Below are positions 29,148 to 30,476 of a stretch of DNA of 64,000 nt, in pieces; the first letter of the stretch is position 1, and each line of letters begins with the position of its first letter. Location of the stretch: NCBI RefSeq assembly GCF_008014775.2, contig NZ_CP144914.1, positions 124,001-188,000 of the forward strand, in the 5' to 3' direction. The notes below the pieces were generated by a model. That model was given only the letters and a program-made list of their open reading frames with translations, did not search any database and was not told where the DNA came from. A program made the position numbers and the translations under genes. This stretch comes from Alkalicoccus halolimnae. GTDB lineage: Bacteria > Bacillota > Bacilli > Bacillales > Salisediminibacteriaceae.

Positions 29148-29591
29148 ATGCAACTTCACGAACTAAAACCTACTGAAGGTTCCCGTAATCAGAAGCGTAA
29201 GCGTAAAGGCCGTGGTGTCGGCAGTGGTAATGGTAAAACAGCCGGCCGGGGAACTAAGGGTCAAAACGCACGTTCCGGCGGCGGTGTTCGTCCTGGATTC
29301 GAAGGTGGCCAGATGCCTATCTTCCGTCGTCTTCCAAAACGAGGATTCAAGAACCCGAACCGTGTGGAATACGCAGTCGTGAACCTGGACTCCCTGAATC
29401 GTTTCGAAGATGGTACAGAAGTCACTCCGGCTCTCCTTGTAGAATCCGGCGTTGTTAAAAACGAACGTGGCGGAATTAAAGTCCTTGGTAACGGAACATT
29501 AGATCGTAAACTGACTGTGAAAGCGACGAAGTTTTCCGGTTCAGCGAAAAATGCAATCGAAACTGCTGGAGGATCTACGGAGGAAGTGTAA
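29148..29591 (+). CDS. rplO: 50S ribosomal protein L15
   Basis: A 147-residue late-assembly protein. The glycine/arginine-rich N terminus ([20 protein letters not shown]) and [18 protein letters not shown] are intact. Its stop overlaps the secY start as TAATG, as in B. subtilis. The frame is clean to the last codon, which contrasts with the wreck that starts at the next base. Confidence 0.97.
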
Positions 29592-30476
29592 TGTTCTCTG
29601 TGATCTCCAATCTCTTTCGAGCAGGAGATTAGAAGAAATTCTTATCACCTAAGCGATGTTAATCGTCTTTCGAATCGGTGCCTACATCCCCGCGCCGGAA
29701 GTTCCTGCACAGGCGTGAAGCTTCGGCGGGGTGATGAACGCCATCGACGGAGGTGCCATCGAGACTTTCTCGATTTTTGCGACAGAAATAATGCCCTACA
29801 TTACAGCATCCATTTAATTGCATGCTGTGCCTGCATGTTTGCAGGCGAAACGGCTGCAGGTCGCAAAAAGCTAGCACAAGTGACAAGATAAAGAAGCAAT
29901 TGTGAAGACGTTTTATGAACCTGTTTCCGGACCAGTACTGTTTTGAACCGGAGACTCTCCGGCAGAATGCAGAAGGCAGACGGAGGACAGGGAGAACGAA
30001 TTCTCAATTTTTATCTTTGCTGGGATTGCTGCTGGGATTCCGAATGGAGTTAACCAAGTCTTACGTAACTCAATTCGAAGGCGCAGGAGATGCCTTGTTT
30101 ATGAACATCGTTACTGTGCAGCTTAAACTGCTAGCACTGTCAGCGATCGTTGTAGGAGTTATTTTTGTTAAGCAAATCCTTAAACACCCGATGAATACGC
30201 CAGACGATTAGTTGCCGGGAAATCGCTGCTTCAGCAGCTGTCTCCCTGGAATTTGTCCCGGGAATACGACGCAGGATCACACCAAGAGAAACCTTCTATC
30301 GATTGCCTTTCGTCGAATGAACATTCCCAGGCAGCCGTCAAAATCCTTTCTGTCTTCTTTCGAAGCTGGTCTGCTTCAAAGTTCACAGCTTTGAGGAAGC
30401 GGATTACTGATCGTTGTTGGTGTCACAGCAGACACAAAGAACAAATGAAGAATCAGCTGAAGACGAAATCGATGGA
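29591..30476 (+). pseudogene. secY: Degraded secY (Sec translocase channel subunit)
   Basis: The slot between rplO and adk that holds secY contains about 885 nt instead of about 1,290, in shifting frames. Recognisable pieces in correct order: [13 protein letters not shown] then a stop (29591); MLIVFRIGAYIPAPEVP (29656); ETFSIFATEIMPYITASI (about 29734-29813); RKKLAQVTR (about 29861); FAGIAAGIPNGVNQ and, in another frame, YVTQFEGAGDALFMNIVTV…IVVGVIFVKQ (30010-30175); PGNTTQDH…RNLLSIAF (about 30260-30315); and EQMKNQL near the end. Most of the central region is missing. Losses are mostly many small indels, with the surviving blocks still SecY-like. SecY is essential, so either another copy exists, or this stretch is a sequencing or assembly fault. 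Confidence 0.88.

Follow-up and report, generated by a model that had tools for sequence, protein, structure and literature searches.

A broken spc-operon secY in Alkalicoccus halolimnae that appears to keep a conserved non-coding element after an old SecY paralogue took over

The spc operon and its secY gene are among the most stable gene arrangements of bacteria. A ruined secY within this operon of Alkalicoccus halolimnae raises the questions of which gene supplies the essential membrane channel and of what the operon copy has become. We analysed a stretch of 64,000 nucleotides (the window; contig NZ_CP144914.1, positions 124,001 to 188,000), in which the locus reads as follows.

29148..29591, plus strand: rplO (ribosomal protein uL15), intact.
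29589..30487, plus strand: operon secY remnant, 899 nt, from the rplO stop codon to the adk start; frame lost, retained as a non-coding region.
30488..31141, plus strand: adk, intact.

The SecY-like fragments of the 899-nt gap stand in the correct order, but they are spread across all three frames. Tblastn recovered five SecY pieces in frames 1, 3, 2, 1 and 1, with E values of 1e-16 for the first three and of 9e-6 and 2e-5 for the other two. The rplO-adk gap measures 1329-1367 nt in the 25 intact operon copies of the family, relative to which approximately 430-470 nt are absent here. This agrees with a first-pass annotation of the locus, which had described ordered SecY fragments between intact rplO and adk with about 400 nt missing. 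Deletions, frame breaks and stops occur throughout the remnant outside a few conserved blocks. The same annotation had considered a local sequencing or assembly fault a real possibility. However, the same gap is broken in five further genomes of the genus (G001, G004, G005, G006 and G007), where it is 721-1089 nt long and shares many of the changes. Because relatives carry the same lesion, found in six of eight Alkalicoccus genomes in total, the artefact reading is refuted. In G006, tblastn of the gap returned no SecY piece, and the remnant is visible at the DNA level alone.

The first-pass annotation had also asked for a genome-wide search with SecY. In the A. halolimnae genome (G000; 3.69 Mb, one contig, 99.6% complete), the sole PF00344 match is an intact frame on the minus strand at G000:C1:2985538-2986578, hereafter the ectopic copy. 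It is flanked by what we take, from the translations, to be a DsbA-like gene on one side and a run of fadN-, fadA- and fadE-like genes on the other. Its best named matches among the best 80 of 190 related loci come from A. saliphilus and other Alkalicoccus. The ectopic SecY scored 468.4 bits against the housekeeping model TIGR00967 (cut-off 253.6), over model positions 1-414 of 414. By contrast, it remained below the cut-offs of both models of accessory SecY2, with 181.2 against 249.6 for TIGR02920 and 192.6 against 353 for NF009082, and we thus rejected its assignment as SecY2. The accessory SecY2 of Gram-positive bacteria, as presented in PMC12445088, is likewise a second SecY in a Gram-positive genome. 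Unlike SecY2, the ectopic SecY described here fits the housekeeping model, and 7 of the 32 family genomes with a completeness of 90% or more have it as their only intact SecY.

SecE, which had been noted as intact from the sequence, was confirmed by its domain within the window.

1027..1188, plus strand: SecE domain, the sole SecE match of the genome.

As to SecA2, the partner of accessory SecY2, the genome gave one full-length SecA match, of 441.5 bits. A weak partial SecA_DEAD match (68 positions, 25.2 bits, cut-off 24.6) in a 682-aa frame at G000:C1:2079545-2079748 probably belongs to another helicase. The ectopic SecY is functional-looking by its sequence and would be the working channel of this genome.

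How old is the second copy? Operon and ectopic copies are both intact in 24 of 35 family genomes. A single intact SecY was found in the other 11, namely six Alkalicoccus (genus g1: G000, G001, G004, G005, G006 and G007), three of genus g6, G010, and G034, which is 76% complete and in which rplO was not found. All eight Alkalicoccus genomes carry an intact ectopic secY, and the operon copy is whole in G002 and G003. In all three g6 genomes the operon copy is broken or almost gone, leaving rplO-adk gaps of 157, 397 and 435 nt; at least G021 retains a short 5' secY remnant, as read from its sequence. Two of these spacers stand out on their own. The 157-nt spacer of G018 (L119) is unusually structured, with a local folding z of -5.3, and G012 contains two perfect hairpins of 8 and 9 bp. 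Outside the family, each of the 25 order-level relatives searched has one SecY.

In a tree of 77 SecY proteins, including L045 and L047 from the best 80 of 190 related loci, the 34 ectopic rows form one clade (100/100) and the 25 operon rows a second (98/93); the 18 outgroup rows fall in neither. Since the two clades are separate, the tree places the SecY duplication at the base of the family and marks the ectopic gene as an old paralogue. The first-pass view of a functional secY elsewhere and a decaying original therefore stands as far as the intact ectopic copy and the lost operon frame are concerned, whereas the tree speaks for takeover by an old paralogue rather than a recent move. A horizontally acquired replacement is not supported, as the two clades group as sisters within the family, judged against an outgroup of only 18 rows. 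Within the tree, the six Alkalicoccus genomes that lack an operon gene cluster together (91/82, below the program's star), as do those of g6 (100/100), and these two separate groups imply at least two losses or replacements. G010, the one genome of g4, represents the only family genus with the operon secY alone (G010:C19:14650-15687). As this gene groups with the operon copies, G010 has probably lost its ectopic copy, or the assembly lacks it.

In most comparisons the ectopic SecY has evolved faster than the operon SecY. The ratio of ectopic to operon protein distance was 2.2-4.0 in 28 pairs of g3 (taken as Salipaludibacillus), 1.35-2.46 in 27 of 28 g5 pairs (in the remaining pair the operon distance is zero) and 2.0 for the single pair of g2, and three g8 pairs gave 1.2-1.8. 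Only one Alkalicoccus pair retains both copies; its ratio was 1.04, and comparisons with g7, like g3 a sister genus, gave 1.03 and 1.17. The low Alkalicoccus ratios fit a handover of the main role before the operon gene was lost, although ratios nearly as low (1.2-1.3) occur in two g8 pairs where no copy has been lost. In G020 and G027 (L154/L158 and L153/L157), the operon SecY proteins are identical and the ectopic ones differ in 1.6% of residues, so the ectopic copy is faster even over short times.

The family thus shows an essential membrane channel being passed between genes stepwise, with genomes carrying both copies, both copies with a relatively faster operon copy, a remnant, or almost nothing. 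This resembles paralogous displacement of an essential gene, in which canonical SecY likewise would come from a second, old copy after loss of the copy in the conserved operon. It differs in that the lost copy leaves behind an element that is conserved at the nucleotide level and is older than the loss. The strongest conservation falls into two blocks.

30011..30099, plus strand: conserved core, 89 nt, two blocks.
30011..30055, plus strand: left block of the core, 45 nt identical in G000, G001 and G004, with the 31-nt centre GGGATTGCTGCTGGGATTCCGAATGGAGTTA.
30065..30099, plus strand: right block of the core, 35 nt identical in the same three genomes.

We compared the core pairwise in nine genomes of Alkalicoccus or a sister genus, comprising six remnants and three intact operon copies. 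Eight of them are identical at 67 of 67 letters and the ninth, G006, at 64 of 67. Hence, all 28 pairs without G006 differ at 0/67 positions, and the eight pairs with it at 3/67. For the same comparison, four-fold sites of the ectopic secY differ by 0.53-0.72 in 33 distant pairs and by 0.21-0.25 in three close ones; in the 33 distant pairs, four-fold differences amount to 0.43-0.71 in adk and 0.36-0.65 in rplO. The alignable gap differs by 0.27-0.45, with many additional indels, in distant pairs with at least one remnant.

The constraint is also seen where the gene is whole. We scored synonymous codon identity in ten-codon windows among eight intact operon copies of g1, g7 and g3, after dropping G009, G026, G027 and G030 as near-copies. 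The core windows (codon columns 180-210) reached 0.85, 0.90 and 0.95, against 0.53 overall. In the same windows, seven g5 operon copies scored 0.39, 0.37 and 0.44, and the ectopic genes of the eight genomes 0.46, 0.34 and 0.46. Near-identical core letters are therefore conserved at synonymous sites in the intact secY of two sister genera, which indicates that a non-coding function predates the loss of the protein function. The first-pass annotation had read surviving SecY-like blocks as a sign of recent loss. One of its blocks, EGAGDALFMNIVTV at 30077-30118, overlaps the core, where the nucleotide sequence itself is conserved, including in sister genera that have the whole gene, so recent loss is not what preserves this block; its other block, MPYITASI, lies outside the core.

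Identical runs in the core are 31, 15 and 13 nt long, and the longest elsewhere are 8 nt in secY, 8 nt in rplO and 11 nt in adk. The 31-nt run GGGATTGCTGCTGGGATTCCGAATGGAGTTA is the longest common to 12 lineages across approximately 20 kb of the operon region; the next-longest, of 29, 25 and 23 nt, lie at gene junctions with ribosome-binding sites, as judged from the frames. Among the four remnant-bearing lineages alone, a 36-nt core run ranks only eighth because ribosomal genes are very conserved there, which is why the case for the core depends on the wider comparison and the absence of a frame. Ten of 397 genomes of the order, all in g1, g3 and g7, contain the core at 88% identity or more across 75 or more of 84 bases, other matches being shorter or less alike. 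No viral contig searched contained the 31-nt run. Apart from the two secY loci, a DNA search of the family for a relocated core gave a single hit of 23 bases, in G008; an RNA-model search likewise returned the secY loci (some on both strands), together with two hits at E 0.06-0.08 in G023 and G014. In genus g6 the core is lost and no copy was found elsewhere, so it is dispensable there.

Two other sources of the conservation were considered and rejected. Gene conversion from the ectopic copy does not apply, as the ectopic letters and residues differ at this place. A small protein across the core is excluded by loops of differing lengths, which leave no common frame.

The comparison of genomes thus shows nucleotide-level constraint on the Alkalicoccus operon remnant, strongest in the core. 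An ordinary pseudogene, in which the operon copy simply decays after the takeover and the surviving blocks are leftovers, is very improbable as a full account. The takeover itself is real, breaks, deletions and stops occur everywhere outside the blocks, and the copy is almost gone in g6 with its gaps of 157-435 nt. However, a neutral pseudogene should be free of nucleotide constraint once its frame is lost, and the core departs from this expectation: it is unchanged in every pair without G006, with four-fold sites near saturation in most, and nearly the same letters are synonymously conserved in intact genes of other genera.

We consider it most plausible, at a probability of roughly 0.6, that the ectopic paralogue took over the protein role and that the operon remnant keeps a non-coding element, which is probably a structured RNA with a cis effect on the spc transcript. 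In and next to the core, four putative stem-loops or helices can be drawn.

30022..30041, plus strand: putative stem-loop H1, 6 pairs, invariant; no covariation.
30042..30076, plus strand: putative stem-loop H2, 10 pairs, stem nearly invariant; the loop varies in sequence and length between species.
30078..30096, plus strand: putative stem-loop H3, AAGGC-GCAGGAGAT-GCCTT; excluded by an alternative pairing.
30109..30145, plus strand: putative helix F, 12 pairs, 4 of them changed on both sides; excluded by an alternative fold.

Because the loop of H2 differs in length between species, no frame crosses it. The core stems are nearly invariant and consequently yield no covariation. The tests of alignment windows, perfect-hairpin counts and segment folding used four lineages, excluding G005 and G007 as near-copies of G001. 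None of 500 shuffles reached the covariation score of the whole structure, though 28 of 500 reached its count of doubly changed pairs. RNAalifold favours a different, multibranch fold without H3 and F. Recent changes avoided predicted stems when the structure was drawn from the same three sequences. With single-sequence structures the outcome was mixed, with P from 0.000 to 0.58 and one of four controls also at P 0.0000. Most 140-column alignment windows outside the core do not fold significantly.

The same data bear on whether the core acts as RNA or as double-stranded DNA, for example as a protein-binding or replication/segregation site. A DNA element would account for the inverted repeats, for the antisense strand of the core window folding as well as the sense strand (z -2.92 against -2.98), and for perfect Watson-Crick hairpins being favoured with no sense-strand excess of G-U pairs. 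On the other hand, the arms of H2 are spaced by 9, 10, 11 or 12 letters between the same flanking motifs, which is unusual for a dimer-binding site, and helix F combines a compensatory change with loops of differing length. We regard a DNA site as unlikely. The core would rather work as RNA, as a set of short hairpins in the spc-operon transcript, which we consider probable.

Outside the core, the remnant contains further conserved blocks and hairpins.

29661..29682, plus strand: further block, 22 nt identical in G000, G001 and G004.
29829..29846, plus strand: perfect hairpin, 7 bp; a different hairpin at about the same alignment place in G002, G004 and G006.
29868..29885, plus strand: further block, 18 nt identical in G000, G001 and G004.
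29948..29962, plus strand: perfect hairpin, 6 bp, at the site of a large deletion; other hairpins there in G001, G006 and G007.
30147..30168, plus strand: further block, 22 nt identical in G000, G001 and G004, not in G006.
30225..30238, plus strand: perfect hairpin, 5 bp; others at about the same place in G001, G002, G003, G004, G006, G007 and G013.
30420..30435, plus strand: hairpin GTGTC/GACAC; conserved stem with a variable loop in G000, G001, G007 and the intact G013.

Perfect hairpins of at least 6 bp number 19 in four remnants as compared with 5.8 in shuffles (3.25-fold, z 6.0). The same ratio is 1.08-1.90 in intact operon and ectopic genes (z 0.2-2.9, two of the four groups at 2.6-2.9) and 2.6 in the g6 gaps. 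Hairpins of at least 7 bp, 7 against about 2.4 expected, are too few to use. Seven segments, chosen by eye after viewing the hairpins, folded with a combined p of 1.4e-12 over 26 segment-lineage tests (2 of 28 cells, G004 segment D and G006 segment H, being too short), and six of the seven fell below 0.05, with intact genes low in some too. Local folding z-scores over the whole gap, in 29 of 34 regions, did not distinguish the remnants from the intact genes.

Template-switch mutation in unconstrained DNA could have made the non-core hairpins, leaving them without function and the core as the only functional part. Perfect palindromes are the expected product of such events, and in a G004 hairpin at columns 47-65 one arm resembles intact relatives and the other its reverse complement, as seen by eye. 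Yet hairpins recur at matching alignment places across lineages that differ, with unlike letters, and loops vary where stems stay, as for GTGTC/GACAC. Likewise, one loop reads GAAA, GTAA and GTGA in G001, G005 and G007, respectively; all three are GNRA-type loops by the tetraloop rule. A purely mutational origin of these hairpins hence seems somewhat doubtful to us, though less so than a DNA site.

If RNA is the active form, it might alternatively act in trans, processed from the spc transcript into a regulatory RNA. The conservation evidence would be the same, and the remnant, at 721-1089 nt and with many hairpins, is longer than expected of a simple cis site. Against this, neither a promoter nor a terminator of its own was seen: the search of 29400-30700 for a sigma-70-like promoter or a terminator was a weak one, with only 1.2 and 1.5 expected. 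Within the family no copy was found away from the two secY loci, and Rfam 15 covariance models gave no match in window positions 29000-31000 at E up to 5. We judge an action in trans to be improbable, about as much as a DNA site. A cis RNA is the simplest guess because the element is fixed in place, shows no promoter or terminator of its own, is not found elsewhere, and has spacers that fold. Action in cis is more tentative than the RNA nature; the element may, for instance, serve in binding, processing or antitermination and so maintain expression of the distal genes, from adk onward.

Under the cis-RNA reading, a non-coding element would have arisen within the secY frame in an ancestor of three genera and would have constrained codons as long as both functions used the same letters. 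The old SecY paralogue would then have taken the protein job and the operon frame would have been abandoned, with the element persisting in place and supporting the distal spc genes once the stretch was no longer translated. A bolder form, which we put forward only tentatively, is that a structured RNA was born in the secY frame in the ancestor of Alkalicoccus, Salipaludibacillus and the third genus, and later became a pure RNA gene or an operon-internal regulator, its ex-coding spacers being rebuilt into hairpins. If so, a bacterial protein gene has been caught becoming an RNA, with intermediate stages alive in sister species.

The birth of Xist-type RNA from a dying protein gene in mammals similarly turned a protein gene into a conserved non-coding locus in place. 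In contrast, the present case comes from a bacterium and lies within the ribosomal spc operon, and fixation of the conserved letters came before coding was lost. Structured stretches within a long operon transcript are also known from operon-internal antitermination RNAs like EAR and from the cis-regulatory RNAs of ribosomal-protein operons, whereas the element described here matches no Rfam family and sits inside coding sequence in sister genera. Among the titles listed in the literature library searched, none described a remnant of secY, an RNA derived from it, or a second housekeeping secY from this family. An apparently ruined essential gene can hide a function at the nucleotide level, and annotated pseudogenes in conserved operons may not be dead. 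The family makes both the origin of dual coding and the fate of a regulatory element testable when its host frame dies.

A similar run lies further downstream in the window. At 33504-33570, 67 nt are identical in four Alkalicoccus lineages, 29 nt of which are shared by all 12. The run surrounds the start of a 314-aa frame at 33548, which its position marks as rpoA. Within the run, GGGGTTTCGA is similar to GGGATTCCGA in the secY core, and the run is possibly a second such element.
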